Shown here: piece after piece, positions 17,406-46,162 of the stretch
Position numbering within the stretch: position 1 is the first letter of the stretch
Layout: every line of letters starts with the position of its first letter
Assembly: GCA_003343805.1 (NCBI GenBank)
Contig: QAKM01000085.1
Location: forward strand, 1 to 46,508
DNA from: Bacillota bacterium
Lineage (GTDB): Bacteria; Bacillota; Clostridia; Christensenellales; Borkfalkiaceae
Length of the DNA stretch: 46,508 nucleotides
Direction: 5' to 3'
The notes under the pieces: model-generated
What the model saw: the letters and a program-made list of their open reading frames with translations, nothing else
Databases searched by the model: none
Told to the model about the DNA's origin: nothing
Made by a program: the position numbers and the translations under genes

Positions 17406-17415
17406 GGAGACATTC

Positions 17416-19296: not shown

Positions 19297-19304
19297 AAAT
19301 GACC

Positions 19305-19328
19305 TTCCCCGCCCGTGCGGGCGGGGAA
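19305..19328 (+). other. Intercistronic hairpin
   Basis: A perfect 10-bp stem, TTCCCCGCCC/GGGCGGGGAA, with a GTGC loop between the accessory lipoprotein gene and the kinase gene. The AAGGAGG ribosome site of the kinase starts a few bases later and no T run follows. An mRNA processing or stability element that uncouples levels of the surface proteins from the enzymes is plausible. Confidence 0.6.
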
Positions 19329-19341
19329 TAAGGAGGATATC

Positions 19342-21800: not shown

Positions 21801-21816
21801 GCGACAGGGAGCCAAC

Positions 21817-26935: not shown

Positions 26936-26952
26936 GATTTCACCTCGGCAAT

Positions 26953-26981
26953 AGTATAACTCATTTCGCATTTTTTGTCAA
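26953..26981 (-). promoter_or_regulatory. Promoter of ATPase copy 1 with an operator-like palindrome
   Basis: TTGACA (26976-26981), a 17-bp spacer and TATACT (26953-26958) on the minus strand. ATTTCGCA (26963-26970) and TGCGAAAT (26992-26999) form an inverted repeat around the -35 box that could bind a regulator. Confidence 0.82.
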
Positions 26982-26999: not shown

Positions 27000-27117
27000 A
27001 AGAATGATTTCCGTCGGATGGCGGGCTTTTTGGTGGAAAAATTACTATTTTTGTGCCGAATTGTAATAGAAAAGCGGGGGAAGGGGCGATATAATGGGGC
27101 AAAAAGGAGGAAAATGT

Positions 27118-30149: not shown

Positions 30150-30844
30150 AACGGCCTTTTGGCTTCCGCGCCCAAGTGCGGGCGTACATCAGATTTTTGG
30201 AACAAAAAAAGCTTGCGCGGATCAAGGCGCTTGCCCGTTATCCGCGAAGGGGCGGCATCCTCTTTCTCGGCGATTCCCTCACCGAGGAGTTCCCCTTCGC
30301 CGATCTTCTGCCCGAGTTTGATATCGTCGGGCGGGGATACAGCGGCGATACGGCGGGAATGCTGAAGGAGCGGCTCTCCTATACCTGCGCGCCCTATGCG
30401 CCGCGGGCAGTCTTTCTGCAAGTCGGCATCAACGATCTGCAGCGGGGGAGCTCGCCCGAGGAGACGACCGCGGCTGCCGCGGAGGCGCTCGATGCTGTCC
30501 GTGCGCTCTGTCCTGCGGCGAAGCTGCATCTTCTGGCGCTCTATCCCGTCAATGTGACGGCAGAAAAATTTGCGCTCATTCGCCCTCGTGCGCTTCGGAA
30601 GCCGGAGGCGCTTGAGAAGATCGCCCGGTGCAACGCGCTGCTTTCGGCGGCTGCCGCGGAGCGGGAGATCGGGTTTTTGGACCTCGTGGCGCGGCTGAAG
30701 GACGAAAGGGGAGAGCTCAGGGAGGCGTATTCCTGCGACGGGCTGCATCTCACCGTGGAGGGCTATGCCGCGCTTGCGGAAGCGCTCGTGCCTTCTCTCG
30801 TGCGCTGCGGCCAAACGGAAGAACATACGGAGGTATTATCATGA
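30146..30844 (+). CDS. SGNH/GDSL-family hydrolase
   Basis: A 232-residue esterase-type hydrolase. Block I is LFLGDSLTEEFP (39-50) with nucleophile Ser44, block II GRGYSGDT, block III QVGINDL and block V DGLHLTVEGY with the catalytic Asp-His pair. No signal peptide is present; residues 8-30 are a basic helix. This subfamily commonly deacetylates carbohydrates. It starts in an ATGA overlap with the acyltransferase gene after AAGGAG, and ends in an ATGA overlap with the next esterase, so the genes are translationally coupled. The likely substrate is an acylated oligosaccharide imported by the nearby transporter. Confidence 0.93.
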   Translation: MKRPFGFRAQVRAYIRFLEQKKLARIKALARYPRRGGILFLGDSLTEEFPFADLLPEFDIVGRGYSGDTAGMLKERLSYTCAPYAPRAVFLQVGINDLQRGSSPEETTAAAAEALDAVRALCPAAKLHLLALYPVNVTAEKFALIRPRALRKPEALEKIARCNALLSAAAAEREIGFLDLVARLKDERGELREAYSCDGLHLTVEGYAALAEALVPSLVRCGQTEEHTEVLS

Positions 30845-31770
30845 AAGTATTGCAGTTTGAGATCGGAGAAAACGGGGCGAAGCTTACCTGCTATCTGCAG
30901 GACAGTTCGCCCGCCATCTATGGTTCGGAGCGGCGGCCTGCCGTCGTCATCTTCCCGGGCGGGGGATATGAGTTCGTCTCCGACCCCGAAGGGGAGCCCG
31001 TGGCGCTCGCGTATGCGGCGGAGGGGTTCCAAAGTTTCGTCCTTACCTATTCGGTGGGAGAAAAGGGCGTCTTTCCCATTCCGCAGCGGGAGGCGTTTGC
31101 CGCCATCGCCCTCGTCCGGAGACACGCGCGGGAGTGGGGCGTCGATGAAGGGAAGATCGCCGTCGCTGGTTTTTCGGCGGGCGGACACCTTGCGGCGAGC
31201 TGCGGCGTCTATTGGAAGGACGGGCGCGTCAACCCGGAAGCGGACAAACGGGCCTGCCGCCCCGATGCGCTCGTCTTGGGCTATCCCTGCATCACGGCGG
31301 GGGAATACGCCTATCCCGGCATCAACACGGTCCACGGGAAGGGAACGGCCTTTCCGGAGCTCCTGAGCCTTGAAACGCACGTGGACGGGGATACGCCGCC
31401 CGCGTTCGTGTGCCATACCTCGGACGATACCTGCGTTCCCGCGATCAATTCTCTCCTCTTCTGCACCGCGCTCGCAAGGGCGAATGTCGCTTACGAGCTG
31501 CACATCTACAAGGAGGGCCCGCACGGCATGAGCCTTGCAAACGGGGCCGTCTCCTCGCCGCTGCTTGCTGCGCAGGACGAGGACGTGCGCCATGCCGTGG
31601 GGGCGATCGCCCGCCGCTTTTCGGGGTGGCTGAAAGAGAGTGTCGCCTTTCTGAAACAGGTGTTCGAGCCCGTCCGCTTCGGCATCCGCGACGGAAAGCT
31701 CGTTCTGCTTCCTTCTTGCGGGAAAGAGGGGACGGGATGTTCCGATGACAAGAAAAATGTGAACAAGTGA
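30841..31770 (+). CDS. Alpha/beta-hydrolase carbohydrate esterase
   Basis: A 309-residue alpha/beta hydrolase of the acetyl-xylan-esterase/BD-FAE-like group. It has VIFPGGGYEFVS (oxyanion region, 36-47), the nucleophile elbow GFSAGGHLAAS (110-120, Ser112), the acid in HTSDDTCVP and the histidine in GPHGMSLA. The C-terminal ~60 residues are variable. It is cytoplasmic by sequence. With the SGNH protein it gives the operon two different esterase folds, which is usual in loci for heavily acetylated hemicellulose or pectin. It ends the operon; no clear terminator follows before the next transport genes. Confidence 0.93.
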   Translation: MKVLQFEIGENGAKLTCYLQDSSPAIYGSERRPAVVIFPGGGYEFVSDPEGEPVALAYAAEGFQSFVLTYSVGEKGVFPIPQREAFAAIALVRRHAREWGVDEGKIAVAGFSAGGHLAASCGVYWKDGRVNPEADKRACRPDALVLGYPCITAGEYAYPGINTVHGKGTAFPELLSLETHVDGDTPPAFVCHTSDDTCVPAINSLLFCTALARANVAYELHIYKEGPHGMSLANGAVSSPLLAAQDEDVRHAVGAIARRFSGWLKESVAFLKQVFEPVRFGIRDGKLVLLPSCGKEGTGCSDDKKNVNK

Positions 31771-31901: not shown

Positions 31902-33551
31902 ATGAAACACAAGGTACTTTGTATCGCATTGAGCGCGGTCGTCGCGATCGGCGTGGTCGGCGCGGCAGCAGGCTGTAAAGAGGTGGAAGAGGACCTTGAC
32001 ACCATCAAGATCTTTCTGCCTTTCGAGGTCGTGAACGGTTATACGAGTTACAGTCAGCTCCCCGTCTATCAGGAGCTCGAAAAGCGCACGGGCGTGAAGG
32101 TGGAGTACACCCACGGCGTGTACAACGACATCCAGCAGATGTGGACGGGCGACTACGAGAACTACGACGTCATGATCATCAGCGATGTGCAGGTGGGTGC
32201 GGGCTATCCCGGCGGCATCGAGAAGGGGATCTCGGACGGCGTCATCTGGGATCTCACCCCCTATATGGAGGAGAGTGCGCCCGACTACCTCAAGGCCATC
32301 GAAGGAAGCTATGCGTCCGTGCAGAAGTTCACCAAGACGGACAGCGGCAAGTATGCGGGCATCTACAGCGTTCCCATGGAGGAACAGGGCCCCTGGTACG
32401 GCTTCGTCATGCGCGAGGATTGGCTGCGTGCATGGCAGGAGGCGGAGGGCATCATCGAAGAGGGGGCGGAAGTCGTCGATCCCGTCACCTATGACGATTG
32501 GGAGGCCTTCCTCACCTATGTCAAGGAGAATCTGAACGGCGGCAAGGCTCCGCTCTTCCTCTACTACACGGGGACGGATATGGTCGGCACGCTGAATGCG
32601 GGCTTCCAGGTCTCGAGCGGGCTGTATCTCAAGAACGGCAATACCGTCGCCTATGGCGCTGCCGAGCCCGAATATCAGCAGTATCTCGACAAGATGCGCG
32701 ATTGGTACGCAAAGGGCCTCATCGATGCCAACTTCTTCACCAACAATGAGGGCACCGAGTCGCAGCAGCCGCAGATGCCCGCGATGGATTCCTTCGATCT
32801 TACGACCTATCAATACACGCCGGCGCAGTACGCGGCCTTCCCCATGATCTACACCTACATCCACACCTATGAGGATCTGATGGCCAACTATGCGCCTCTC
32901 TACGAGGCGACGGGCAAGGACGTTTACGACCTTCGTCCCGTGTCGGCGCCCAAGCAGGATGCCGACGACGAGCTGCACATCCGTTATACGGAGAAATCTT
33001 CCGCTTATGCCGTCATCACCAACCGCGTCAAGACGGAGGAGAAGGTGCGCGCCATCCTCGAATGGTTCAACTATCTCTTCACGGATGAGGGAAGCCTTCT
33101 CATGAACTACGGTATCGAGGGCGATACCTTCGAGTATGTGAACGGCGAGCCCATGTTCACGGAGAAGATCACCGCCAACAGCGAGGAGCCGCCGCTCAGC
33201 TTCTCGGATGCCATCAACAAGTACTGCTCGCTCAACTTCATCTTCCGCTATGAGTGGGAGCGCGAATTGCAGGTCGTCAACGATGAAGAGAAGAGCGCCA
33301 TGACGGAAGTGTGGAACTGCGACAACTCCTATGTGCTGCCCACCGTCACGCTCACCGAGCAGGAAGGAAAGGTCTCCGAACTGTACGAGCTCAACCTGAC
33401 CAAGTTCAAGGATGAGTTTACCGTCAACTACATCATCGGCAAGAATACGCAGAGCTTCGATGAATTTGTGGCAACGATGAAGTCGACCTATCACATGGAC
33501 GATCTCGTCAAGGTATATGCCGACGCTTATGCAAGATATCTGAAGCGATAA
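31902..33551 (+). CDS. Extracellular sugar-binding lipoprotein of the second importer
   Basis: A 549-residue solute-binding protein with a type II signal peptide (lipobox AAGC, Cys25). The mature part includes LPVYQELEKRTGVKVEYTHG, typical of LplA/LipO-like binding proteins, then IYSVPMEEQGPWYGFVMREDW and a C-terminal domain rich in aromatic residues expected to stack on sugars. It is followed by two permease genes in the order binding protein-permease-permease, the reverse of the fructan locus. The ligand is unknown; the flanking GH3, esterase and apiosidase-like genes suggest a plant cell wall oligosaccharide. Confidence 0.94.
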   Translation: MKHKVLCIALSAVVAIGVVGAAAGCKEVEEDLDTIKIFLPFEVVNGYTSYSQLPVYQELEKRTGVKVEYTHGVYNDIQQMWTGDYENYDVMIISDVQVGAGYPGGIEKGISDGVIWDLTPYMEESAPDYLKAIEGSYASVQKFTKTDSGKYAGIYSVPMEEQGPWYGFVMREDWLRAWQEAEGIIEEGAEVVDPVTYDDWEAFLTYVKENLNGGKAPLFLYYTGTDMVGTLNAGFQVSSGLYLKNGNTVAYGAAEPEYQQYLDKMRDWYAKGLIDANFFTNNEGTESQQPQMPAMDSFDLTTYQYTPAQYAAFPMIYTYIHTYEDLMANYAPLYEATGKDVYDLRPVSAPKQDADDELHIRYTEKSSAYAVITNRVKTEEKVRAILEWFNYLFTDEGSLLMNYGIEGDTFEYVNGEPMFTEKITANSEEPPLSFSDAINKYCSLNFIFRYEWERELQVVNDEEKSAMTEVWNCDNSYVLPTVTLTEQEGKVSELYELNLTKFKDEFTVNYIIGKNTQSFDEFVATMKSTYHMDDLVKVYADAYARYLKR

Positions 33552-33585
33552 TCGCAAGAAAATTTTGGAAAGGGGGTAAGACGAG

Positions 33586-34593
33586 ATGAAAGATACGGCG
33601 TTAGAGGCGGTTTGTGAGCGCGCGGAGGGAGTGCCTTCCGCCGCCCGCGGACCGTCCAAATGGAACCGGGTGAAGAGAGATGTGAGGCGCAACTGGCCGC
33701 TGTATCTGATGATCCTGCCTGTCGTCGTGTTCTTCCTCGTCTTTTCCTACTTTCCGATGCTGGGACTTCTGGTCTCCTTCAAAGATTACAGCACGGTGCA
33801 GGGCATCTTCGGCAGCCCCTGGGCGACCGATCTTGCGGGGAACACGGACATCTTCTTCCACTTCAAGACGTTCTTCTCCGATCCCTACTTCGGGCGGCTC
33901 ATAAGGAACACGCTCATCTTCAGCCTGATGGACATCGTGTTCGTGTTCCCGGCGCCCATCGTGGTGGCGCTCCTCATGCACTCCATCCAGAACAAGCCCT
34001 ACCGGCGTGCGACTTCCACGATGATGTATATGCCGTACTTCATCTCGATGGTCGTCGTCTGCGGTATCGTCAGAGACTTCACGTCGGTGAGCGGTATCTT
34101 CAGCGTCATCGCGCAGCGCCTCGGCATCGTCGCCGATGAGACTGCCATCCTGGGCGATACCCGCTTCTTCCGCTGGATCGTCATCATTTCCAATATCTGG
34201 CAGGCGACGGGGTACGGGAGCATCATCTATATCGCGGCGCTGTGTTCCATCGACACGACGCTCTACGAGGCGGCGGATATCGACGGCGCGGGGCGCATGG
34301 CGAAGCTCTTCCGCATCACCATCCCCTCCATCATGCCCACCATCATGATCTTCCTGCTCCTGAAGATCGCGGCGATCCTCAACTACAACTTCGAGAAGAT
34401 CCACCTTCTCTACTCCATCCCGACCTATGAAGTGGGGGATATCCTCTCGACGTATATCTACCGCATCGGCATCGAGCAGGGGCGCATCAGTTACACGACC
34501 GCCATCAGCTTCTTCAATTCCGTCGTCGGGTTCGTGCTGCTCCTCATTTCCAACTGGTTCTCGAAGAAGTTCGGCGGGAACAATCTCTTTTAA
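33586..34593 (+). CDS. Sugar ABC transporter permease, LplB type (second importer)
   Basis: A 335-residue membrane subunit with an N-terminal cytoplasmic tail, six helices starting at NWPLYLMILPVVVFFLVFSYF, and the EAA loop EAADIDGAGRMAKLFRITIP. It ends WFSKKFGGNNLF, matching the LplB ending of the fructan permease (KFSENSLF). It starts 34 bp after the binding protein with an AAGGGGGT ribosome site and is followed 11 bp later by its partner. No ATPase gene accompanies it. Confidence 0.95.
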   Translation: MKDTALEAVCERAEGVPSAARGPSKWNRVKRDVRRNWPLYLMILPVVVFFLVFSYFPMLGLLVSFKDYSTVQGIFGSPWATDLAGNTDIFFHFKTFFSDPYFGRLIRNTLIFSLMDIVFVFPAPIVVALLMHSIQNKPYRRATSTMMYMPYFISMVVVCGIVRDFTSVSGIFSVIAQRLGIVADETAILGDTRFFRWIVIISNIWQATGYGSIIYIAALCSIDTTLYEAADIDGAGRMAKLFRITIPSIMPTIMIFLLLKIAAILNYNFEKIHLLYSIPTYEVGDILSTYIYRIGIEQGRISYTTAISFFNSVVGFVLLLISNWFSKKFGGNNLF

Positions 34594-34604
34594 GGAGGCA
34601 AAGT

Positions 34605-35492
34605 ATGGCAGTCAGATCGAAAAAGCCGTCCGACGTCATCGTCCGGATCGCGACGTACTTCTTTACCGCTCTCTTTGCCGTCCTGTGCGTGCTGCCCATG
34701 TGGCACGTCATCATGGCGAGTTTTTCCGACCCCATCCGCCTTTCGCTCTATGAAGGGTTCCTCTTCAGCCCGCTCACGTTCTCCGTCGAGGGCTATGAGC
34801 TGCTCTTTTCCTACGACGGCCTGTGGCGGAGCTACCTCAACACCGTCATCTACACGGCGGGCGCGACGGGGCTGGGGCTCGTGCTCGATCTTCTCGCGGC
34901 GTATGTGCTCTCCCGCAAGAAGGTGCTCTTCAACCGCCCGCTGATGGTGTTCATCATCATCACGATGCTCTTCAGCGGCGGTATCATCCCGCTGTATATC
35001 GTCGTGCGGGCGCTCGGGCTCACCAACACGATGGGCTCGATGATCATCCCCGCCTGCTGCAACGCGATGAGCATCATCATGCTCAAGAACGGCATGGAGT
35101 CGGTGAACGATTCCATCTGCGAAGCGGCGCAGATCGACGGCGCGGGCCATGTACGCATCCTCGTGCAGATCATGCTCCCGCTCACGACTTCCTTCATCGC
35201 CACGGTGGTGCTCTTCAACGCCATCGGACACTGGAATTCCTGGGTGAACGCCTCGATGTTTCTGAGTCGCTCGCACAAGGATCTCTATCCGCTGCAGCTC
35301 ATCATGCGCGATATCCTCATCAACAACAGCGCAGAGGGCGTGCTCTCCCCGTCGGGATATCCCATCTCCTTCTACCTCGCTTCCCTGCGGGTGGTGATGG
35401 TGGTGGTCGGCTCGTTGCCGCTCATCATCCTCTATCCCTTCGTGCAGAAGTACTTCGAGACGGGCATCATCATCGGCGGCGTCAAGGAGTGA
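34605..35492 (+). CDS. Sugar ABC transporter permease, YtcP/MalG type (second importer)
   Basis: A 295-residue membrane subunit with six helices, the EAA loop EAAQIDGAGHVRILVQIMLP and the diagnostic C-terminus YPFVQKYFETGIIIGGVKE. It pairs with the preceding permease. It is the last gene before a strong bidirectional terminator shared with the convergent LacI gene. Confidence 0.95.
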   Translation: MAVRSKKPSDVIVRIATYFFTALFAVLCVLPMWHVIMASFSDPIRLSLYEGFLFSPLTFSVEGYELLFSYDGLWRSYLNTVIYTAGATGLGLVLDLLAAYVLSRKKVLFNRPLMVFIIITMLFSGGIIPLYIVVRALGLTNTMGSMIIPACCNAMSIIMLKNGMESVNDSICEAAQIDGAGHVRILVQIMLPLTTSFIATVVLFNAIGHWNSWVNASMFLSRSHKDLYPLQLIMRDILINNSAEGVLSPSGYPISFYLASLRVVMVVVGSLPLIILYPFVQKYFETGIIIGGVKE

Positions 35493-35520: not shown

Positions 35521-35549
35521 AAAAGGCGCAGCTTGGAGCTGCGCCTTTT
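35521..35549. terminator. Bidirectional terminator between the importer operon and the LacI gene
   Basis: A perfect 13-bp stem AAAAGGCGCAGCT/AGCTGCGCCTTTT with a 3-nt loop as written, giving a T run on either strand. It ends one base before the LacI stop codon. Confidence 0.92.
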
Positions 35550-35550
35550 C

Positions 35551-36561
35551 TCATGCCGAGGTGCGGCGGATGAGCGATGTGCCGATCTCGATCTTGACGG
35601 GCGGAAGGCGTCCGTCTTTTATTTTTTCGAGGATCCGCTTTGCGGCGGCCTTTCCCATCTCCTGTTTGGGAACGCGCACCGTCGTGAGCGTGGGCGAGGT
35701 GTAGCTGCACAGGGGCATATCGTCAAAGCCGACGACGGCAACATCCTGCGGGATGCGTTTTCCCCGCTCCGTGAGTGCCCGCATCGCGCCCGCCGCGATG
35801 AGGTCGTTGTCGGCAAAATAGCAGCGGGCAAGCTCTTCGCCGCGGTCCAAAAGCTCGAGCATATCCGAATAGGCGCCTTCGGCAGAGGGCGTCAAACGGT
35901 GCACGATGCTGCGGGACGGGGAGTGGCCGCTCTTTCGGATGGCCTTATAGAAGCCGTCGGCGCGCTCCGAGAAGTTGTTGATGGGGTAGGAGGAGTTGAG
36001 ATACCCCGCCTGCGTGCGGTATTTGGTGATGAGATAGCTCGTCGCAAGATACGCCCCCTGCACGTTGTTGATGAGCACGCTGTCGTAAGGGGCGCCCTCG
36101 AAGTAGGTGTCGAGGAGCACGAAGGGAAAGGGGAGAGCGGCAAGGAGGGGAAGATCGCCCTCGTCCATCTCGGTGCCGAGGATGATCGCCCCGCCGAAGC
36201 CCTCTTTTGTGGCAAGGGAAAATTGCGTGCGGCTGTCCTCCTCATAGACATAGCGCACGACAAGGCGGTAGCCGCTTCTCCGCGATTCCGCTTCGATGCC
36301 CTGCGTGAGTTCGGCAAAGAAGGGGGTGTCGGTGACCACGGCGCCGTGCTTTTTATAGATGAGGAAGAGAAGGTTGCCCTCGGGGTGGTCGTGCTCGAAT
36401 TGCCTTTCCCTGATGCGCGAAAAGTCGTAGCCGTATTCCTCGGCGGCCTTTAAGACGCGCTCGCGCGTGCGTTCGCTGACGCCCGCTCTGCCGTTGAGCG
36501 CCATCGAGACGGCTGCTTCCGAAAGGCCGAGCATTGCTGCAAGTTCTTTGGCGGTGATCAT
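35551..36561 (-). CDS. LacI-family transcriptional regulator of the isomerase/kinase locus
   Basis: A 336-residue regulator: helix-turn-helix [20 protein letters not shown] (2-21), hinge helix [15 protein letters not shown], and an effector-binding domain with [37 protein letters not shown] and [22 protein letters not shown]. It lies convergent to the second importer and divergent from the glycosidase-isomerase-transketolase-kinase operon. A 28-bp palindrome between them overlaps its own -35 box, so autoregulation and control of the divergent operon are likely. Its effector is probably the sugar or phosphosugar of that pathway. Confidence 0.95.
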
Positions 36562-36591: not shown

Positions 36592-36620
36592 ATTTTAGCA
36601 AATTAAGCAAATTAAGTCAA
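36592..36620 (-). promoter_or_regulatory. Promoter of the second LacI-family gene
   Basis: TTGACT (36615-36620), a 17-bp spacer and TAAAAT (36592-36597) on the minus strand. The -35 box lies inside the palindrome at 36609-36636. TTAATTTGC is repeated in tandem in the spacer. Confidence 0.82.
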
Positions 36621-36636
36621 GAGTTTGACTTAATTT
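36609..36636. promoter_or_regulatory. Operator-like palindrome between divergent genes
   Basis: AAATTAAGTCAA and TTGACTTAATTT form a perfect 12-bp inverted repeat around a 4-bp centre. The left arm is preceded by another AAATTAAG. It covers the -35 of the LacI gene and lies just upstream of the divergent promoter, the expected place for a repressor site. It lacks the CG centre of classical LacI-family operators. Confidence 0.7.
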
Positions 36637-36692: not shown

Positions 36693-38159
36693 ATGAACGT
36701 AAAGCAGTATGACATGGTGGAATTTTCCGTTGAGGATGCGCCGTCCGTCGCCGAGTTCTGGCAGGGCGAGGAGCGCGTGCGGGCGGAGAGCTTTTTGAAG
36801 GCAAAGGGCGATTACGCCGTGCGCTTCATGCCCGATGCTTTGGGCGAGTGGCGCTACCGCATCGGGGAAAAAGAGGGGAGCTTCGGATGCGTCCCAGATG
36901 AGGGTGTGCACGGGCGCGTGCAGGAGAAGGGAACGCATTTTTGCTATGAGGACGGCACGCCCTTCTATCCCTTCGGCACGACTTGCTATGCCTGGACGAG
37001 CCAGGAGGACGCGCTCGTGGAAGAGACGATTTTCACGCTGAAGACGGCGCCCTTCAACAAGATCCGCATGTGCATCTTCCCCAAGCATATGCCCTATAAC
37101 CACAACGAGCCGCCCTACTTCCCCTTCGAAAAGGACGAGAAGGGGGAGTGGGATATGGAAAAGCCCGACTTCCGCTATTGGGATCGGCTCGACCGCTGCC
37201 TTTCGGCATTGCGTGAGATGAACATCGAGGCGGACATCATCCTCTTTCACCCCTATGACCGCTGGGGCTTTTCGAGGCTCGGGATGGAGAAAAACTTGCA
37301 GTATCTGAGGTATGCCGTCGCCCGCCTTTCCGCTTACCGCAATGTGTGGTGGAGCCTTGCCAACGAGTACGAAATGGTGACGGCGCTCTCCTTGGACGAT
37401 TGGGATACGATCGGGCGCTTTATCGCGGAAAAGGACGCTTATCATCATCTCATCGGCGTGCATGATTGGGTCTGCCCCTTCCCCAAGAAGAAATGGCTGA
37501 CGCATGCCTCCATCCAGAGCGGCGAGGTGAGAAGGGTCGCTGCCTGGAAGAAGGAGTATGGCATCCCCGTCATCATCGATGAATTCGGCTATGAAGGCGA
37601 TCTTCCGTTCGGATGGGGGAATTTATCCGCCTTTGAATTTATAAACCGCGCATGGAGCATTGCGGCGGTCGGCGGATATGCGACGCACGGCGAGACCTTC
37701 CACCGCGAGGACGAAGTCTTGTGGTGGGCGAAGGGCGGCAAACTTTACGGCAAGGCGCCCGAACGGTTTGCTTATCTTAAGAGCGTGATCGAAGAAGTCG
37801 GGGCGTTGGAGCCCGTTTCGGCGCTGCCGCAAGACCCCAACGGCAACGACGGGAACGATTGGGTGAGGAAGCTTGTAGAAGGGTTTCCTGTCCGCGAACA
37901 GTGGCAGATGGAGCTCTGTTTTGCCGAGTTTTACGGCCGCAACGAGGGACACCGTATTCTGTATCTCGGCCGTCAGTGCGCGCGGTATCTGGAGCTCGCG
38001 CTTCCCGAAAAGGGCGAATACCGCGTGGAAGTCATCGATAGTTGGGAGATGACGCGGAGAACGGCATATGAGGCTGCCTGCGGCAAGGTACGCGTGGAAC
38101 TGCCCGCCAAAGAGGGCATGGCGCTCCTTGTCACGCGTTTAAGCGGAGAAAATTTATAA
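36693..38159 (+). CDS. DUF5060/DUF4038-type (apiosidase-like) glycoside hydrolase
   Basis: A 488-residue cytoplasmic glycosidase. Residues ~1-75 form a small beta-sandwich of the DUF5060 type (YDMVEFSVED, YAVRFMPDALGEWRYRI). A TIM barrel follows from YPFGTTCYAWTS (92-103), with NKIRMCIFPKH, ILFHPYDRWG, the putative acid/base in WWSLANEYEM (219-228, Glu225) and the putative nucleophile in VIIDEFGYEGD (293-303, Glu297). A C-terminal beta domain (about 400-488) resembles DUF5605. The DUF4038 barrel is the apiosidase-like catalytic domain, whose characterised members include GH140 enzymes; whether this protein cleaves apiosides is inference from family and neighbours. It is first in a five-gene operon. 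Confidence 0.85.
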   Translation: MNVKQYDMVEFSVEDAPSVAEFWQGEERVRAESFLKAKGDYAVRFMPDALGEWRYRIGEKEGSFGCVPDEGVHGRVQEKGTHFCYEDGTPFYPFGTTCYAWTSQEDALVEETIFTLKTAPFNKIRMCIFPKHMPYNHNEPPYFPFEKDEKGEWDMEKPDFRYWDRLDRCLSALREMNIEADIILFHPYDRWGFSRLGMEKNLQYLRYAVARLSAYRNVWWSLANEYEMVTALSLDDWDTIGRFIAEKDAYHHLIGVHDWVCPFPKKKWLTHASIQSGEVRRVAAWKKEYGIPVIIDEFGYEGDLPFGWGNLSAFEFINRAWSIAAVGGYATHGETFHREDEVLWWAKGGKLYGKAPERFAYLKSVIEEVGALEPVSALPQDPNGNDGNDWVRKLVEGFPVREQWQMELCFAEFYGRNEGHRILYLGRQCARYLELALPEKGEYRVEVIDSWEMTRRTAYEAACGKVRVELPAKEGMALLVTRLSGENL

Positions 38160-38175
38160 AATTCGGAGGATAGAT

Positions 38176-39576
38176 ATGGATAAGATCGTTTTGGGATTTG
38201 CGCCGACGAGGCGGAGCATTTTCTCCGCGCCTGCGGCGGTGGAGTATGCAAACTACACGCGCGAGAAGCTGCGCGCAATGGGCGTGGAGTTCGTCGATAT
38301 CGACGATATTTCTTCGGACGGGCTGCTGCACGACGATAACGACCGCGTGAAGATCGCCCAAAAATTCAAGGCGGCGGGGGTGGACGGACTCTTCTTCCCG
38401 CACACCAACTTCGGCACGGAGTATGAAGTCGCCCGCCTCGCAAAGGAGATGGGGCTGCCCGTCCTTTTGTGGGGCCCGCGCGATGAGCGCCCCGATGAGA
38501 ACGGCGTGCGCCTGCGCGACAGCCAGTGCGGGCTCTTTGCAACGGGCAAGGTGCTGCGCAGATTTCAGGTACCCTTCACCTATCTTTGCAACTGCAATTT
38601 GGAAGACGAGGCGTTTGAGCGGGGCGTGAAGCTGTTCCTTGCCGTCTGCAACACGGTGAAGGCATTCCGCAAGACGCGCATTTTGCAGATCGGCCCGCGC
38701 CCCTTCGACTTCTGGTCGACGATGTGCAACGAAGGGGAGCTCCTTGAAAAGTTCAACATCCAGCTTGCGCCCGTGCCGCTTCCCGAGCTCACCGCCGAGA
38801 TGAAGAAGGTGAAGGCGGACAAGGAACAACTTGCAAAGATCGTCGCCTTCTGCCGCGAACAGTTCAAGATCTCCGTCTCCGACGAACAACTCGAAAACGT
38901 TGCGGCGCTCAAGGGCGCCATGCGCAACCTGGCGGAAAAGTACGGCTGCAATGCAGGGTGCATCCAATGCTGGAATGCTTTGCAGGATGAGATCGGCATC
39001 ATGCCGTGCGCCGCGAACAGCCTTCTCAATGAGGAGGGCTTCCCCGTCGCCTGCGAGACGGACATCCACGGGGCGATCACTTCGGTGCTGGTGGAAGCCG
39101 CGGGCATGGGCGTGAAGCGCTCCTTCTTCGCCGACTGGACGGTGCGCCATCCCGACAACGAGAACGGGGAGCTCCTGCAGCACTGCGGACCGTGGCCGTC
39201 TTCCTGCTTGAATTGCAAGCCCGAGATCTGCTATCCTTTGGCTTTCGACTATCCCGGCGCGGTGGCGGGCGAAGCCAAGCACGGCACGATGACGCTCGCC
39301 CGCTTTGACGGCGACAACGGCGAATATTCGCTGCTCCTCGGCAACGCGAAGGGCATCGACGGGCCGTACACCAAGGGCACCTATGTGTGGGTGGAAGTCA
39401 GGAACTGGAAGCGGCTGGAGGCGAAGATCGTCGAAGGGCCGTACATCCATCACTGCGTGGGTATCCATCAGGACGTCGTGCCCGTCCTCTATGAGGCGTG
39501 CAAGTATCTGGGCATCAAGGCCGATCTCTATGACGATATAGAGGAAGATGTGAAGGCATATATCCGGGGGGAATGA
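38176..39576 (+). CDS. L-fucose/L-arabinose isomerase-like sugar isomerase
   Basis: A 466-residue protein of the fucose isomerase superfamily. The N-terminal domain (about 1-160) has the Rossmann-like LGFAPTRRSIFSAPAAVEYA and DGLFFPHTNFGTEYEVARLA; the second carries TRILQIGPRPFDFWSTMCNEGELL; the C-terminal domain has CNAGCIQCWNAL, CETDIHGAITSVLVEAAG and IHHCVGIHQDVVPVLYEACK, whose Glu, Asp and His residues are candidates for metal binding. It would interconvert an aldose and a ketose. It lies between the glycosidase and a split transketolase, with a FGGY kinase downstream, so it likely isomerises the released pentose or deoxyhexose. The specific sugar cannot be read from sequence. Confidence 0.85.
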   Translation: MDKIVLGFAPTRRSIFSAPAAVEYANYTREKLRAMGVEFVDIDDISSDGLLHDDNDRVKIAQKFKAAGVDGLFFPHTNFGTEYEVARLAKEMGLPVLLWGPRDERPDENGVRLRDSQCGLFATGKVLRRFQVPFTYLCNCNLEDEAFERGVKLFLAVCNTVKAFRKTRILQIGPRPFDFWSTMCNEGELLEKFNIQLAPVPLPELTAEMKKVKADKEQLAKIVAFCREQFKISVSDEQLENVAALKGAMRNLAEKYGCNAGCIQCWNALQDEIGIMPCAANSLLNEEGFPVACETDIHGAITSVLVEAAGMGVKRSFFADWTVRHPDNENGELLQHCGPWPSSCLNCKPEICYPLAFDYPGAVAGEAKHGTMTLARFDGDNGEYSLLLGNAKGIDGPYTKGTYVWVEVRNWKRLEAKIVEGPYIHHCVGIHQDVVPVLYEACKYLGIKADLYDDIEEDVKAYIRGE

Positions 39577-39577
39577 G

Positions 39578-40396
39578 ATGGACGAACTCACAAAAAAATC
39601 GTATCGGCTGCGGCGCATCGTCCTCGAGGCGGTGTATCGCTCCTCGTCGGGACACATCGGGGGCGATCTCTCCGTCGTCGATATTCTCAATGTGCTGTAT
39701 AATAAGATCATGAACGTTTCGCCCGAGAAAGTGCACGATCCCGACCGTGACCGCTTTGTTCTGAGCAAGGCGCACTGCGCGGACTGCTTGTATGCGGTGC
39801 TCGGCGACAGGGGGTATTTTGACCTTGAGGAATACCTTAACACCTTCGAGCGTTTTCAAAGCCGCTTTATCGGCCACACGAATACGGATATCCCCGGCGT
39901 GGAGATGAACGGCGGCTCTTTGGGGCACGGCCTTGCGGTGGGCGTCGGCATGGCGCTCGCGGCGAAGATGGATAAGAGGGCTTACCGCACTTATGTCGTC
40001 CTCGGCGATGGGGAGATGGCGGAGGGCAGCAACTACGAGGCCATGATGGCGGCGGCGCAGTACGGTTTGGATAATCTCTGTGCGACCGTCGATCTCAACG
40101 GGCTGCAGATCTCTGGCACGACGAAGGAAGTCATGAACAGCGCGCCTTTGGCGGAAAAGTTCAAAGCATTCGGCTGGAACGTGGTGGAAGTTGCGGACGG
40201 AAACGACTGCGAACAGTTGATTGCGGCCTATGAGGCGGCAAAGAACTGCAAGGGGATGCCTACTGCCGTCATCGCGCACACGGTGAAGGGCAAGGGAGTC
40301 TCCTTCATGGAGAACAACGCGAAGTGGCATCACGGCGTGATGAGCGCCGAACAGTACGAGCGCGCGGTGCGCGAATTGGAGGCGATGTATGAATAA
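39578..40396 (+). CDS. Transketolase-like protein, N-terminal (TPP-binding) subunit
   Basis: A 272-residue thiamine-diphosphate subunit of a two-gene transketolase. It has the invariant histidine in SSGHIGGDLS (23-32), KAHCADCLYAVLGDRG, GSLGHGLAVGVGMA, and the TPP motif from GDGE (143-146) to the asparagine of VDLN (171-174). It begins one base after the isomerase stop codon and overlaps the C-terminal subunit gene by eight bases. Split transketolases occur in pentose pathways of many anaerobes and, as AptA/AptB, in D-apiose catabolism, where they cleave apulose 4-phosphate. Which reaction applies here is inferred from neighbours only. Confidence 0.95.
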   Translation: MDELTKKSYRLRRIVLEAVYRSSSGHIGGDLSVVDILNVLYNKIMNVSPEKVHDPDRDRFVLSKAHCADCLYAVLGDRGYFDLEEYLNTFERFQSRFIGHTNTDIPGVEMNGGSLGHGLAVGVGMALAAKMDKRAYRTYVVLGDGEMAEGSNYEAMMAAAQYGLDNLCATVDLNGLQISGTTKEVMNSAPLAEKFKAFGWNVVEVADGNDCEQLIAAYEAAKNCKGMPTAVIAHTVKGKGVSFMENNAKWHHGVMSAEQYERAVRELEAMYE

Positions 40397-41315
40397 AGTG
40401 ACCAACCGCCAGGTCATCTGCGATACGCTGCTTGCGGCGGCAAAGGAAGATCGGAATATCATCGTCGCCTGCTCCGATTCGCGCGGGTCGGGCTCCATGA
40501 CCGCCTTTTTTGAGCAGTTCCCTGCCCAAAGCGTGGAAGTGGGCATTGCGGAGCAGGATCTCGTCTCCATTTCGGCGGGGCTTGCGGCGTGCGGGAAGAA
40601 GGTGTTCGCCGTGTCGCCCGCCTGCTTCCTCTCCACCCGCTCCTATGAACAGGCGAAGGTGGACGTCGCTTATGCGGAGACCAACGTCACGCTCGTCGGC
40701 ATTTCGGGGGGCATTTCCTACGGGGCGCTCGGCATGACGCACCACTCGCTGCAAGATATTGCGGCAATGTCGGCTCTGCCCGGGATGCGCGTGTATCTTC
40801 CTTCCGACCGCTTCCAAACGAAAGCCGTCGTCGAGGAATTGCTCCAGGACGAAAAGCCTGCCTACATCCGCGTTTCGCGCAGTGCGAGCGAAGATCTCTA
40901 TTCCGAAGACACCGTTTTCTCGGGCGGCGCAAAGGTGCTGAAAGAGGGGAAGGACGTGCTGTTCGTTGCCTGCGGCGAACTCGTTGCGCCCTGCCTGCAT
41001 GCGGCGGAGCTGCTCGAAAAGGAGGGCGTTTCGGCGGGCGTTGTCGATGCCTACCGCGTCAAGCCGCTCAATGAGGAACTTATTTTGAAGGCGGCGGAAG
41101 GGGTGCGCCTTGTGGCGGCGGCGGAGGAACATTCGCCCTACGGCGGGCTGTTTTCGATGACGGCGCAGCTGTTCTCTTCGAAGTGCCCGAAGAAAGTCGT
41201 GGGGCTCACCCTGCCCGACGGGCATATCGTCACGGGGACGCAATCGGAGGCCTTTCAGTACTACGGGCTGACCGCAGAAGGCATCGCAAGGCGCGTGAAA
41301 AAGGAGCTCGCATGA
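40389..41315 (+). CDS. Transketolase-like protein, C-terminal (pyrimidine-binding) subunit
   Basis: A 308-residue partner of the preceding gene. It has the catalytic glutamate in VEVGIAEQDLVSISAGLAA (49-67, Glu55), the YEQAKVDVAY region, GALGMTHHSLQDIAAMSALP, and the C-terminal transketolase domain with GGAKVLKEGKDVLFVACGEL and VVDAYRVKPLNEELI. The two proteins would form an alpha2beta2 enzyme. It overlaps the kinase gene by ATGA, so all five genes are closely coupled. Confidence 0.95.
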   Translation: MNKVTNRQVICDTLLAAAKEDRNIIVACSDSRGSGSMTAFFEQFPAQSVEVGIAEQDLVSISAGLAACGKKVFAVSPACFLSTRSYEQAKVDVAYAETNVTLVGISGGISYGALGMTHHSLQDIAAMSALPGMRVYLPSDRFQTKAVVEELLQDEKPAYIRVSRSASEDLYSEDTVFSGGAKVLKEGKDVLFVACGELVAPCLHAAELLEKEGVSAGVVDAYRVKPLNEELILKAAEGVRLVAAAEEHSPYGGLFSMTAQLFSSKCPKKVVGLTLPDGHIVTGTQSEAFQYYGLTAEGIARRVKKELA

Positions 41316-42727
41316 AGACGGTACTTTGTATCGACCAGAGCACGCAGGGCACAAAGGCGCTCCTTCTCGATGAAGAGGGGCGGGTGATCGCGCGCGCCGC
41401 AAGGCCGCACAGGCAGATCGTCGACGGGCGGGGATATATCTCCCATGACCTCAATGAGATCTGGCAGAATGTGCTTCTTGTCGCCCGCGAGTGCGTGGGG
41501 GAGAATGCCGCGAGCGTGAAAGCGGTCGGCATCTCCAACCAACGGGAGACGAGCTGTATGTGGAACGATGAGGGCCCGCTTGCAGATGTCGTCGTGTGGC
41601 AATGTGCGCGGGCAAAGGATATTTCCGACGCGCTCGCCCCCTATTCTGAGACCATCCGCCAAAAGACGGGGCTTCCTCTCTCGCCCTATTTCCCCGCTGC
41701 CAAATATGCGTGGCTCCTGCGTCATACAAAGGCGAAAGGAAGGGTGCACCTCGGCACGGTGGACAGTTATTTGGTCTGGAAGCTGACGGGCAGCTTTTAT
41801 ACAGACTATTCCAATGCTTCGCGCACGCAGCTCTTTGATCTCCATACGCTGCAATGGGATGAGGAGCTGTGCCGCCTCTTCGGCGTGCCCGTCGAAGCGC
41901 TGCCCGAGGTCAAAGACAGCGACGGCGTGTTCGGCTATACCGACCTGGGTGGGCTGTTCCCCGAAAAGGTGCCCGTGTGCGGCGTTCTGGGCGATTCGCA
42001 CGCCGCCCTCTTCGCCGAGGGATGCCTTGCCGCGGGGCAGCTCAAAGTCACTTACGGCACGGGAAGCTCCGTGATGATGAACGTGGGGGAGAAATTCGTT
42101 GAGAGTCGCTGCGGGCTCGCTTCTTCGCTCGCATGGAAGCGGAAGGGGAAAGTCAGTTATGTGCTCGAAGGGAATATCAATTATTCCTGTGCCGTCATCA
42201 CCTGGCTGAAAGACGATCTGGGGCTCCTGAACGACGCGAAGGAGGCGGGCGTGTTGGCGGCGGAAGCGAATGCGCAGGACGAGACGGTGCTCATCCCCGC
42301 CTTTTCGGGGCTTTCTGCGCCCTATTGGAAGCCGGAGGCAAGGGCCGCCATCCTCAACATGAGCCGCACGACGGGCAAAAAGGAGCTTTGCCGTGCGGCG
42401 GAGGAGAGCATTGCCTTTCAGATCGCCGATATTCTGGATGCGCTCCGCGCCGATACGGGGCTCGAAGCCCGCGAAGTGCGGGCGGACGGCGGCGCCGCGG
42501 GGGATGCGTTCCTCATGCAGCTGCAGGCGGACGTTTCAGGGGCAAGCGTGCTTGCTTCCTGTGAGCGTGAGCTTTCCCCGCTCGGGGCGGGCGTGCTTGC
42601 GGGCATTGCGGCGGGGGTGTACCAAGAGGACGTCCTCCAAGGCGAGGTGCGCCGTTTTACGCCCCGCGAAAATGCGCGCGTCATAGCTTCCCGCGCTCGC
42701 TGGAAAAATTGTCTGAAACAGCTATAA
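41312..42727 (+). CDS. FGGY-family carbohydrate kinase
   Basis: A 471-residue sugar kinase. It has the phosphate-1 motif CIDQSTQGTKALLLD (6-20), SNQRETSCMW, YGTGSSVMMNVG and the adenosine-side ADGGAAGDAFLMQLQADV. LPLSPYFPAAKYAWLL and NINYSCAVITWLKDDLG are closer to glycerol-kinase and ketopentose-kinase branches than to typical xylulokinase. In this operon it should phosphorylate the ketose made by the isomerase, giving the substrate of the split transketolase. MKTVLCID was chosen because it has an AAGGAG site and an ATGA overlap with the preceding gene. A terminator follows at once. Confidence 0.93.
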   Translation: MKTVLCIDQSTQGTKALLLDEEGRVIARAARPHRQIVDGRGYISHDLNEIWQNVLLVARECVGENAASVKAVGISNQRETSCMWNDEGPLADVVVWQCARAKDISDALAPYSETIRQKTGLPLSPYFPAAKYAWLLRHTKAKGRVHLGTVDSYLVWKLTGSFYTDYSNASRTQLFDLHTLQWDEELCRLFGVPVEALPEVKDSDGVFGYTDLGGLFPEKVPVCGVLGDSHAALFAEGCLAAGQLKVTYGTGSSVMMNVGEKFVESRCGLASSLAWKRKGKVSYVLEGNINYSCAVITWLKDDLGLLNDAKEAGVLAAEANAQDETVLIPAFSGLSAPYWKPEARAAILNMSRTTGKKELCRAAEESIAFQIADILDALRADTGLEAREVRADGGAAGDAFLMQLQADVSGASVLASCERELSPLGAGVLAGIAAGVYQEDVLQGEVRRFTPRENARVIASRARWKNCLKQL

Positions 42728-42857: not shown

Positions 42858-43124
42858 ATGGACGAACAGGCGATCAAGCAATTCAGAGACTACATGATCG
42901 AGGCGGGCAGGCGCAACAGAGAACAGAAGTACGAAAAGTACCGCCGTCTCAACGCGTTCTGCGAGAAGGGACAGATACTGTTTACGGGATCCTCGCTCAT
43001 GGAGTACTTTCCCGTCGTTGAGATGGCGCAGGGGCTGCGTTCAATCTTATCGTTGTGTCGCTCGATCTCATCTTATACTTCCGCAATCTGCGCCTTGATA
43101 AAAAGGCGGCGGGAAACGGAGTGA
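42858..43124 (+). pseudogene. Truncated SGNH-hydrolase gene
   Basis: After GGAGGCGAAAG the frame starts MDEQAIKQFRDYMIEAGRRN and reaches GQILFTGSSLMEYFPVVEMA, the first block of an SGNH hydrolase with the nucleophile serine. It then breaks near 43035 into unrelated sequence and ends after 88 residues, whereas such enzymes need about 200 with later Asp and His blocks. A TG-extended -10 (TATCAT, near 42827) precedes it. The truncated product cannot be active. Confidence 0.75.
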
Positions 43125-43132
43125 AAGAGTAA
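43040..43132 (+). pseudogene. C-terminal fragment of an unidentified membrane protein
   Basis: In a different frame, directly at the SGNH break, FNLIVVSLDLILYFRNLRLD is followed by a basic tail and a stop. A hydrophobic helix plus basic tail is typical of a membrane protein end. The join of two gene pieces here marks a deletion or inversion endpoint. Confidence 0.45.
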
Positions 43133-43147
43133 GTGATGATTTGTATC

Positions 43148-43184
43148 GCCGCGGCGGCGGGGCAAACTGCCCCGCCGCCGCGGC
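43148..43184 (+). terminator. Long GC-rich hairpin
   Basis: A perfect 17-bp stem (43148-43164 with 43168-43184) and a 3-nt loop; TTTC follows on the plus strand. Probably the terminator of the gene whose tail ends at 43132. Confidence 0.7.
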
Positions 43185-43188
43185 TTTC

Positions 43189-43223
43189 AAAAAAGGCGCC
43201 CTGCGGTTTATGCCGCAGGGCGC
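43189..43223 (-). terminator. Terminator of the galE remnant
   Basis: GCGCCCTGCGG/CCGCAGGGCGC, an 11-bp stem with a 6-nt loop, followed on the minus strand by C and six T. It lies 19 bp past the galE stop codon. Confidence 0.88.
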
Positions 43224-43242
43224 ACCATGTTGATTTGCTTCG

Positions 43243-43870
43243 TTAATTTGCTTCGTAGCCGTTCGGGTTATGGCTTTGCCAGTTCCACTGGTCGCGGCAC
43301 ATCTCCTCGATGCCGTTTTTTGACTCCCAACCGAGCTCTCTCTTTGCCTTGGAGGCGTCTGCATAGCAGACGGCGATATGCCCGCGCGGCGGGGCTTGAT
43401 CTCATAGGGGAGCGTCTTCCCGCACGCCTTTTCGAAGGCGTGGATCATATCGAGCACGCTGTAGCCGACGCCCGTGCCGAGATTATAGACGTACACGCCC
43501 GCTTCCTTGCAGCCCTCGATGAGGGAGAGATGTTCGGGCGTGCCGTAAACGGTCGCAGAAGACGAGAAGACGAGCTTTTTGACGTTATGCGCCTTCATCG
43601 TTTCGAGGAGCACGAGGGTGCCGTAGAGGTTGTTGTCGTAGTATTCGATGGGTTTTTGCACGCTCTCGCCCACCGCTTTGAGACCCGCGAAGTGGATGAC
43701 GGCGTCAAACGTGTTCTCCGAAAAGATGCGCTCCATTGCGGTGCGGTTGCGGATGTCCGCATTGTAGAATGCGACCTCTTTGCCCGTGATCGTTTTGACG
43801 CGGCGGAGCGATTCTTCATTCGAATTGGAAAGATTGTCGACGACGACCACCCCGTAGCCGCGCTCTTCTT
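43243..43870 (-). pseudogene. galE: UDP-glucose 4-epimerase pseudogene
   Basis: Three lesions are visible. The N-terminal TGGAGYIGSH nucleotide-binding motif is missing; homology begins at GYGVVVVDNLSNSNEESL. From VFSSSATVYGTPEHLSLIEG the frame jumps to GVYVYNLGTGVGYSVLDMIH, removing about 130 central residues including the YxxxK catalytic pair. After [10 protein letters not shown] one base is missing, and the true ending ([20 protein letters not shown], then [21 protein letters not shown]) continues in another frame. The surviving parts are close to consensus, so decay is recent or the region was joined by rearrangement. Confidence 0.9.
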
Positions 43871-44104
43871 CAGGAGCAATATCCCTTCCTTTGGCCATCC
43901 AATGCCTTCATCGGGAACGTCCTGTGCCATTCCGTTTTGGCGCGTGAGGAAAGAAAAGAGCAGCTCCTCTCCGAGATCAAGGACTGCTATCTCTATATAG
44001 CCGACCGCACGGGCACTCTGTGGGAGAACAACGAGCCGACTGCCTCCTGCTGCCACGGGTTCGCCTCCGTTGCTGCCGTCTGGCTGAAGGAGATCTTCGC
44101 TTGA
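43871..44104 (+). pseudogene. C-terminal fragment of a GH78-like (alpha-L-rhamnosidase-type) protein
   Basis: An open frame without a start reads QEQYPFLWPSNAFIGNVLCH and ends TGTLWENNEPTASCCHGFAS, VAAVWLKEIFA-stop. TGTLWE followed by ASCCHGFAS is the end of the six-hairpin domain of GH78-like glycosidases. It abuts the broken galE 5' end in opposite orientation. The stop codon lies within the -35 box of the next gene's promoter. Confidence 0.6.
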
Positions 44105-44923: not shown

Positions 44924-46162
44924 TTAAAACGCAGGGGAAAGTAGGAACTCAATTATATTTTTATGGATAATGCCGTTGTTTGAGAAATCATGTTTGTCGC
45001 TGCTGACGACATATTTCGGGAAGTTGTCTTCAATTTTCAGAAGCGGACGGAACTCTCGTTCTATGACCGACCGATCTGCAAGCAGGTACGCGACTTGAAT
45101 ATAGATTTTCTCCCGTCCTTTCAGGCAGATGAAATCAACTTCATAATCTCCGATCTTACCGACATGGATCTCATATCCACGGGAGAGCATTTCGATAAAT
45201 ATAATATTTTCGTATAATTTGTTGTAATCTACGAGGTCAGAACTTTTTACATTGTTCCGCAAGCCGAGATCGGTAGCGTAATATTTTTCGTTTGTTGAGA
45301 GCAGGGCTTTGCCTTTCAGATCATAGCGGGGAGCGGTCAGGACAACCATTGCGTTTTTTATTGCGGAGATATAGTTCATCAAAGTAGCTACGGTCGTCTT
45401 TACACCTTCGCTTTTGAGCTTGTTGCAGATCGCGTTTGCGGAGAACGGATTGCCGACGTTTTCCAAAAGAAAAGCAGTTAAGCGTCTTAAAAGATCGACG
45501 TCGCTTATTTTGTTTCGAGCAATTATATCCTTAACGACGATTGTGTTGAAGACATCGTCCAAATAAACGCGGATGGATTGTTCGTCCTCCAAAAGAAATC
45601 TTTGAGGCAGCCCACCAAAGCGCAGATAATCGTCAAAATATGTTTCCTCGGTTGTAAATACTCTCGGAAAACTCATAGGAAAAGTAACGCCCGCACCGCC
45701 TTTCAATTCCAAATATTCGGAAAAAGTGAAAGGATAAACGGTGAAGTGAACATATCGTCCGGCAATATAAGTGGCGAGTTCACCGGAAAGCAGATTTGAG
45801 TTTGAGCCGGTAATGTAAATGTCGCAGTCAATATCAACCGAGAACGAATTGATGACTTTTTGCCAATCTGATACCTCTTGTATCTCATCAAAAAACAAGT
45901 AAAGCCTTTTCCCGGATACGGCTTTGCTTTTTTGTAAAACGTGTTCATAGAGTGCATCGGCAGTCTGATATTTGCGGTTGGCAAACGATTCAAAGTTTAT
46001 ATCTACGATGCGTTCGTTGTTAATGCCCGCTGCTTGAATATGCTCTCGCACTTGAGAGAGGAGAACGGTTTTTCCGCTGCGTCTTACGCCGATGATTACT
46101 TTAATGAGCGGTTTATCGATGAAAGGGATTATTTTTTGAAGATATTTTGTGCGCTTGATCAT
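44924..46162 (-). CDS. AAA-type ATPase with DUF4143 domain (copy 2)
   Basis: A 412-residue AAA_14/DUF4143 protein, related in layout to the gene at 25736-26935 but clearly diverged. Walker A is GVRRSGKT (25-32), Walker B LYLFFDEIQ (87-95), followed by YITGSNSNLLSGELATYIAGR. The C-terminal domain has LYENIIFIEMLSRGYEIHVG and DYEVDFICLKGREKIYIQV, the same nuclease-like pattern as copy 1. The coding sequence is markedly AT-rich compared with all neighbours, suggesting recent transfer. A strong AGGAGGTGA ribosome site precedes the start. It lies between two direct copies of the O-acetyltransferase 3' end. Confidence 0.93.
   Translation of the reverse strand: MIKRTKYLQKIIPFIDKPLIKVIIGVRRSGKTVLLSQVREHIQAAGINNERIVDINFESFANRKYQTADALYEHVLQKSKAVSGKRLYLFFDEIQEVSDWQKVINSFSVDIDCDIYITGSNSNLLSGELATYIAGRYVHFTVYPFTFSEYLELKGGAGVTFPMSFPRVFTTEETYFDDYLRFGGLPQRFLLEDEQSIRVYLDDVFNTIVVKDIIARNKISDVDLLRRLTAFLLENVGNPFSANAICNKLKSEGVKTTVATLMNYISAIKNAMVVLTAPRYDLKGKALLSTNEKYYATDLGLRNNVKSSDLVDYNKLYENIIFIEMLSRGYEIHVGKIGDYEVDFICLKGREKIYIQVAYLLADRSVIEREFRPLLKIEDNFPKYVVSSDKHDFSNNGIIHKNIIEFLLSPAF

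Follow-up and report, generated by a model that had tools for sequence, protein, structure and literature searches.

The question raised by the locus described here is which sugar it serves and in which order its enzymes would act. The window, that is, the whole stretch of 46,508 nucleotides that was analysed (contig QAKM01000085.1 of a Bacillota bacterium, assembly GCA_003343805.1), contains five coupled genes between positions 36693 and 42727, all of them present on the + strand and in the order given in the original prediction, which had been made from the letters of the window alone: a glycoside hydrolase (GH), an isomerase (ISO), the N- and C-terminal subunits of a split transketolase (TKN and TKC) and an FGGY kinase (KIN; Table 1). 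According to the analysis presented here, D-apiose is very probably the substrate, and the operon probably serves the utilisation of this sugar by a route in which the kinase acts before the transketolase. The support for a D-apiose operon comes from the order of the genes, the placement of their products in families, the folds, the residues of the kinase pocket, the gene neighbourhood in relatives and co-occurrence across genomes.

Higher plants have D-apiose, a rare branched sugar, in their cell walls, and it also occurs in flavonoid glycosides, apiin being one of them. A route through ApsI, AplK and AptA/AptB is said to have been described by Carter et al. in 2018, together with the reactions of AplK and AptAB, and the substrate of AptA/AptB is reportedly apulose 4-phosphate. 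In the window, an apioside would be imported and GH would free D-apiose in the cytosol; ISO would convert D-apiose to D-apulose, which KIN would phosphorylate to apulose 4-phosphate, and TKN/TKC would then transfer a two-carbon ketol group from apulose 4-phosphate to glyceraldehyde 3-phosphate, yielding xylulose 5-phosphate and dihydroxyacetone phosphate. A LacI-family protein would repress the operon at a palindrome until the sugar is present.

The genes follow one another with gaps of 16 bases (GH-ISO) and 1 base (ISO-TKN) and overlaps of 8 bases (TKN-TKC) and 4 bases (TKC-KIN); the last overlap, with the stop of TKC, results from placing the start of KIN by family fit at the ATG at 41312 (the mechanical open reading frame opens at 41183). 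The family names first given to these genes agree with their Pfam and NCBIfam matches. GH passes the gathering score of the Apiosidase family PF13204 (52.5 bits, cut-off 26.5) and also matches DUF5060 and DUF5605, ISO matches Fucose_iso_C (31.4, cut-off 29.3), TKN matches Transketolase_N, TKC matches Transket_pyr and Transketolase_C, and KIN matches FGGY models.

For the transketolase pair and the kinase, the references were aplK, aptA and aptB of E. coli SE15 and plasmid clusters of Klebsiella pneumoniae and Rahnella aquatilis with homologues of AptA, AptB, the kinase and the transporter. In one report, the E. coli SE15 genes ECSF_RS02700, RS02710 and RS02715 are named aplK, aptA and aptB, and strains of E. 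coli and E. fergusonii with the apiose cluster grew on D-apiose (PMC13001218). TKN is 46% identical to AptA of E. coli SE15 and TKC is 35% identical to AptB, and in maximum-likelihood trees they join the AptA clade (support 100/99) and the AptB clade (100/98), respectively. Eight genomes that carry the ISO-TKN-TKC-KIN cassette supplied the tree of TKN and KIN with nine glycerol kinases and with eleven split transketolases other than TKN, and all of these, like E. coli GlpK, XylB and TktB, stay outside the Apt and AplK joins. The cassette TKN was the top match to AptA in all eight genomes searched, above every other transketolase gene listed. With KIN joining the AplK clade (97/92) apart from the glycerol kinases of the same genomes, the three proteins are separated from ordinary enzymes, and these trees support the original prediction that the operon could run the D-apiose route in a Gram-positive bacterium.

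The kinase had been described as nearer to glycerol kinases than to xylulokinase, and the model scores bear this out: the best GlpK models reach 451 and 455 bits (below their cut-offs of 590 and 498), whereas the XylB model reaches 171 bits against a cut-off of 380. KIN resembles GlpK in being an FGGY kinase with 38% identity to the E. coli protein, but it differs in belonging to a separate clade, in falling below the GlpK cut-offs and in its pocket. The latter was compared at the seven positions that we take to contact glycerol in E. coli GlpK, with the numbering that we assume for them, in an alignment of 34 rows (21 sampled cassette kinases, 3 AplK and 10 GlpK). R83, E84, W103 and D245 are conserved throughout the alignment; at Q246 and F270, 21/21 cassette kinases and 3/3 AplK have Ser, and 10/10 GlpK have Gln and Phe; Y135 is kept in the cassette kinases and is Leu in AplK. 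Apulose is glycerol with a glycoloyl group on C2 and would therefore suit a relative of glycerol kinase whose pocket, opened by the change of Phe270 to Ser, could hold glycerol with a further two-carbon group. The proposed placement of KIN rests on the tree and the pocket residues.

A swapped order has to be considered at this point, in which the transketolase would act on free apulose to give xylulose 5-phosphate and dihydroxyacetone, and KIN would phosphorylate the dihydroxyacetone. That KIN is GlpK-like, and by pairwise comparison as near to GlpK as to AplK, would suit this order, but in the tree KIN joins AplK rather than GlpK, its pocket is larger than that of GlpK, and TKN/TKC group with AptA/AptB, which reportedly use apulose 4-phosphate. 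Split transketolases acting on unphosphorylated sugars do exist, as described for SqwGH of the sulfoquinovose transketolase pathway (PMC11659671); on balance, the swapped order is considered unlikely, and phosphorylation before the transketolase step is preferred.

The neighbourhood of the cassette was compared in relatives; these are the best 80 of the 584 confirmed places that an alignment of 13 isomerases found in genomes of named species. Completeness was counted in the 69 loci whose sequence extends downstream of ISO for 3.5 kb or more (the other 11 of the 80 end early), and in 66 of them ISO-TKN-TKC-KIN is complete and on one strand, so that the gene order of the predicted operon is conserved far beyond chance. 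The exceptions are L048 and L079, which are without KIN, and L088, which is without TKN, TKC and KIN. The identity of ISO across the 80 loci is 72–95%, and that of the transketolase and the kinase is mostly lower. The hosts, according to record titles, are mostly Lachnospiraceae, a family in which we place Blautia, Lacrimispora, Butyrivibrio, Roseburia, Fusicatenibacter and Anaerocolumna, with a few other labels of metagenome-assembled genomes. Clustering of the proteins called around ISO in the 80 loci (ISO itself being called in 71) showed wide recurrence only for the cassette, for LacI, in 56 loci, and for a GH of apiosidase type, in 23; the next largest clusters reach 7 loci, and no aldolase or epimerase recurs next to the core.

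This last result bears on ordinary pentose or deoxy-sugar use, in which L-arabinose, D-xylose or L-fucose would be processed by the isomerase, the kinase and the transketolase. The L-arabinose-isomerase fold and the Fucose_iso_C domain of ISO are what could be expected of such a pathway. However, no aldolase or epimerase accompanies the core, KIN is far from XylB both in score and in the tree, and at least 31 of the 46 genomes that have ISO also encode another Fucose_iso_C protein, which at about 590–690 amino acids has the size of ordinary L-fucose isomerase; ordinary sugar use is thus regarded as very unlikely.

The presence of ISO was then related to that of apiosidase-type proteins in whole genomes. 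ISO (E ≤1e-150) was found in 46 of 250 genomes from the Lachnospiraceae family of Blautia parvula, so the cassette route is not special to the organism of the window. Matches to PF13204 were considered strong at 190 bits or more and weak at 48–76 bits (a few of these partial); three genomes without ISO, G167 (fragments), G374 and G203 (27–29 bits), were left out of both sets and counted as over the cut-off. Strong matches occur in 25/46 genomes with ISO and in 1/204 without it (odds ratio 242, p 1e-20; here and below, the Fisher p values overstate independence, since the genomes are related and relatedness is uncorrected), weak ones in 18/46 and 10/204 (12.5, p 9e-9), and matches of any kind over the cut-off in 34/46 and 14/204 (38, p 8e-21). 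A pectin-related control family, PF07470, shows a far weaker link to ISO, with 27/46 and 57/204 at E of about 1e-25 or better (3.7, p 1e-4) and 33/46 and 85/204 at E 1e-3 (3.6). A strong PF13204 protein of Blautia parvula matches the GH140 apiosidase 8t9w with 292 bits, and PF13204 is over the cut-off in 34 of the 39 cassette genomes, out of the 80, that have long flanks. Among the 101 nearest relatives, ISO at 89% identity or more was found in four only (L001–L004), and PF13204 is present in two of these four genomes as compared with 4 of the 97 others (p 0.02). The scan of these 101 relatives also brought to light an unusual expansion in G073 and G100, which have 17 and 10 PF13204 matches, many of them in a row on one contig (G073:C43), and no ISO match.

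A further likeness to the enterobacterial route concerns transport. Parts of an apiose-type ATP-binding cassette (ABC) transporter were found in at least 8 of the 80 loci, a lower bound given that the comparison took in members of five neighbour clusters only. The binding proteins of seven loci are 47–56% identical to that of the Klebsiella apiose cluster and at most 29% to those of E. coli for ribose, allose and galactofuranose; the ATPases of six loci are 46–48% identical to the apiose-cluster counterpart (others, at most 41%) and the permeases of six loci 47–55% (others, at most 37%). A DUF2291 lipoprotein is common to the Klebsiella cluster and one scanned Lachnospiraceae copy, and one Lachnospiraceae binding protein has its best PDB match, of 302 bits, in 5ibq, which we take to be a structure solved with D-apiose. 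The ABC ATPase of L061 was dropped as an apiose-type part, being closer to ribose. In the window, the upstream ABC operon, which converges with the lacI gene, is a possible importer of the apioside; both permeases match BPD_transp_1, the first gene has no Pfam match, and L022 has, in the corresponding position, a permease 98% identical to the second one. Counted on fetched stretches of which several are short, and with no statistical test, an apiosidase-type GH accompanies none of the 8 loci with the apiose-type transporter, a DUF4038 GH accompanies 6/7 loci of a phosphotransferase system (PTS) transporter cluster, and a DUF5605-type GH accompanies 8/11 loci with matches to the window ABC permeases, a pattern that the window itself shows.

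These observations also weigh on the idea that the enzymes of the apiose route are shared with a different sugar, branched or short and with an end resembling glycerol, such as hamamelose or erythrulose. The KIN pocket says only that the ligand is larger than glycerol, and the top structure match of the window GH, 4n0r, is an uncharacterised protein, both of which would leave room for such a sugar; the link to apiosidase-type proteins and the apiose-type transporter in at least 8/80 loci argue against it, and it is held to be marginally less probable even than ordinary sugar use. D-apiose is kept as the proposed substrate.

ISO has the L-arabinose-isomerase fold along its whole chain and is a member of the L-arabinose/L-fucose isomerase superfamily; the earlier label of fucose-isomerase-superfamily protein is right as to the superfamily, through Fucose_iso_C, and the fold can be specified as that of L-arabinose isomerase. 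The identity to L-arabinose isomerase is 12–17%, and E. coli FucI and AraA gave no usable sequence alignment with ISO. Residues E294, D320, H336 and H426 are predicted from conservation to form the metal site. ApsI by name was absent from the comparison, and its stand-in was the isomerase of the enterobacterial apiose clusters, which we presume to be ApsI. In the clusters fetched (L117, L118, L121 and L122) this isomerase adjoins AptAB in two of four, those of Klebsiella and Rahnella, and not in Erwinia or K. aerogenes. It had been suggested that the isomerase of the window may differ from the one already described; this is so for the branch and not for the fold, since the isomerases adjoining AptAB belong to the same superfamily. 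The Klebsiella cluster L117, on an 11.6-kb linear plasmid record, also contains a gene of Rpn-type nuclease/transposase (4633-5604).

The sole NCBIfam match of ISO is to the sulfoquinovose isomerase SftI, which could suggest a variant of the sulfoquinovose transketolase pathway. This candidate was dropped on the SftI score (108 against a cut-off of 700), the enterobacterial apiose-cluster isomerase scoring alike (114); a kinase is present as well, and the probability of such a variant is close to nil. The nearest paralogues of ISO, at 37–45% identity, were also rejected as apiose enzymes and likely act on other sugars: in the six neighbourhoods searched (L176–L181), a split transketolase pair was found in L177 only and a distant FGGY match in L180 only. 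In L178 (6955-8304), a paralogue 38% identical to ISO lies beside a class II aldolase, a MocA oxidoreductase and a TIM-barrel isomerase, in an unassigned sugar pathway.

As for the glycosidase, the catalytic residues of GH140, which on the model of BT1012 we take to be the Asp of GGD and the Glu of EPxYE, lie in motifs that are both visible in GH140 alignments. The window GH has instead an invariant N224-E225 and D296-E297, is 13–16% identical to the GH140 apiosidases 8t9w and BT1012 (5msy), and differs from them in its additional DUF5060 and DUF5605 domains and in Glu225 in place of Asp. This protein is a clan-A glycosidase of the DUF5060/DUF5605 type with PF13204 over the cut-off and, on account of the Glu for Asp, not GH140 itself. 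A putative apiosidase role is considered likely. GH is probably cytosolic, since no leader peptide was seen by eye (no predictor was run).

Several of the results weigh against D-apiose utilisation. The window GH is without the GH140 motif, and an apiosidase-type GH, present in the fetched stretch of 33 of the 80 loci, is absent from that of the other 47. In two of the four loci L001–L004, LacI is the immediate neighbour in front of ISO, without an intervening GH, and these are the same two genomes in which no PF13204 match was found anywhere; in the other two the GH gene lies in front of ISO, so that GH was probably gained or lost recently within this group. At the level of the class to which the window belongs (243 genomes), strong PF13204 matches occur in 3/8 genomes with ISO and 20/235 without it (odds ratio 6.5, p 0.03), and any matches over the cut-off in 6/8 and 27/235 (23, p 9e-5); the link is looser there, which weakens a one-to-one relation. 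Apiosidase-type genes without ISO are common outside the Lachnospiraceae family, and therefore other apiose routes, or other uses of these genes, must exist. The apiose-type ABC transporter with DUF2291 was not found in the window. ISO lies off the branch of the enterobacterial apiose-cluster isomerase in the tree, the two having full-length homology at 26% identity. Finally, KIN scores higher in pairwise comparison with E. coli GlpK (38.4%, 360 bits) than with AplK (37.9%, 294 bits), the AplK and Listeria branches of the tree are long, and the letter composition of two AplK rows is unusual, all of which makes the kinase join the weakest of the three.

Compared with the enterobacterial route, the window operon has an isomerase from another branch and a glycosidase, its import module varies by locus, and it has a LacI regulator where the enterobacterial clusters are annotated with a 'sugar-binding transcriptional regulator'. 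What is known, then, would be the kinase and transketolase clades, and what appears to be new is the isomerase branch, the glycosidase and import kit, and the wide Gram-positive spread. We consider it reasonably likely that Gram-positives recruited their D-apiose isomerase separately, from another branch of the same superfamily and with the kinase and transketolase clades kept, and that the cassette is a main D-apiose route of Lachnospiraceae, has import and glycosidase modules of three kinds, and accounts for the unassigned Listeria genes lmo1030–1036. In Listeria monocytogenes (L119, NZ_LR134403.1, 4004-13086), LacI, ISO, TKN, TKC, a 'glycerol kinase', PTS IIBCA and a DUF4038 protein lie in a row; the identity of this ISO is 70%, and the DUF4038 protein reaches 313 bits against PF13204. 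The match to lmo1030–1036 is by order and names only, and it predicts apioside use for an operon that is listed among disparately distributed genes with no pathway (PMC2996996). The assignment of apiose to Lachnospiraceae or Listeria was not found in the open-licence literature searched; part of it may be in print, since PMC13001218 credits Carter et al. (2018) with apiose use by gut Clostridia. As a dependable marker set, ISO-TKN-TKC-KIN would show which gut and rumen bacteria consume apiose and would correct labels such as 'glycerol kinase' and 'L-fucose/L-arabinose isomerase family protein'; it would also exemplify a conserved pathway in which two branches of the same enzyme superfamily supply one step.

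The divergent LacI gene and the operator-like palindrome noted at the outset were both recovered, the latter as AAATTAAGTCAA-GAGT-TTGACTTAATTT with perfect arms. It shares bases with the first hexamer of a promoter-like site oriented towards LacI, one of 3 such sites in the region, where 2.5 are expected by chance. In 49/80 relatives, ISO has a LacI-like gene at a distance of 4.5 kb or less. The palindrome core, with arms of 9 bases, is present in the window and was not found in the relatives' loci compared; of the 71 loci in which ISO was called, 11 have exact 9-base palindromes upstream of it, but the sequences of these palindromes differ, so no regulon could be drawn.

Table 1. Positions in the window of the operon and of the features around it.
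Feature	Position	Strand	Basis or detail
GH, clan GH-A glycosidase, DUF5060-Apiosidase-DUF5605	36693..38159	+	Pfam
ISO, aldose-ketose isomerase, L-arabinose-isomerase fold, proposed D-apiose isomerase	38176..39576	+	Pfam, fold, tree
TKN, N-terminal (ThDP-binding) subunit of split transketolase, AptA group	39578..40396	+	identity, tree
TKC, C-terminal subunit of split transketolase, AptB group	40389..41315	+	identity, tree
KIN, FGGY kinase, AplK group, proposed D-apulose kinase	41312..42727	+	tree, pocket residues
LacI-family regulator, divergent from operon	35551..36561	-	Pfam LacI + Peripla_BP_3
Inverted repeat, perfect 12-base arms, 4-base spacer, candidate LacI operator	36609..36636	.	
13-base inverted repeat, likely terminator, between convergent ends of ABC operon and lacI	35521..35549	.	
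Upstream ABC transporter operon, possible apioside importer	31902..35492	+	candidate binding protein 31902-33551, permeases 33586-34593 and 34605-35492

The window gave no matches in Rfam and tRNA scans, and it contains several other genes of interest. Just upstream of the ABC operon, positions 27094-31770 hold a GH3 glycosidase, a GNAT_C/NAT_N acyltransferase and a BD-FAE-type esterase, which may act on the same plant glycosides. A second sugar operon, at 12461-23292, comprises LacI, ABC permeases, two long genes without Pfam matches, a PfkB kinase and two GH32 genes, and looks like one for fructan or sucrose use. Two AAA_14/DUF4143 ATPase genes that share one architecture, at 25736-26971 and 44924-46162 (both on the - strand), flank the stretch that includes the GH3 gene, the ABC operon and the apiose cassette. 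Downstream of KIN, at 43068-43898 (- strand), lies a shortened NAD-epimerase gene whose domain match is limited to residues 12-124; its remainder, by eye, resembles the far end of a UDP-sugar epimerase, as though the middle had been lost.

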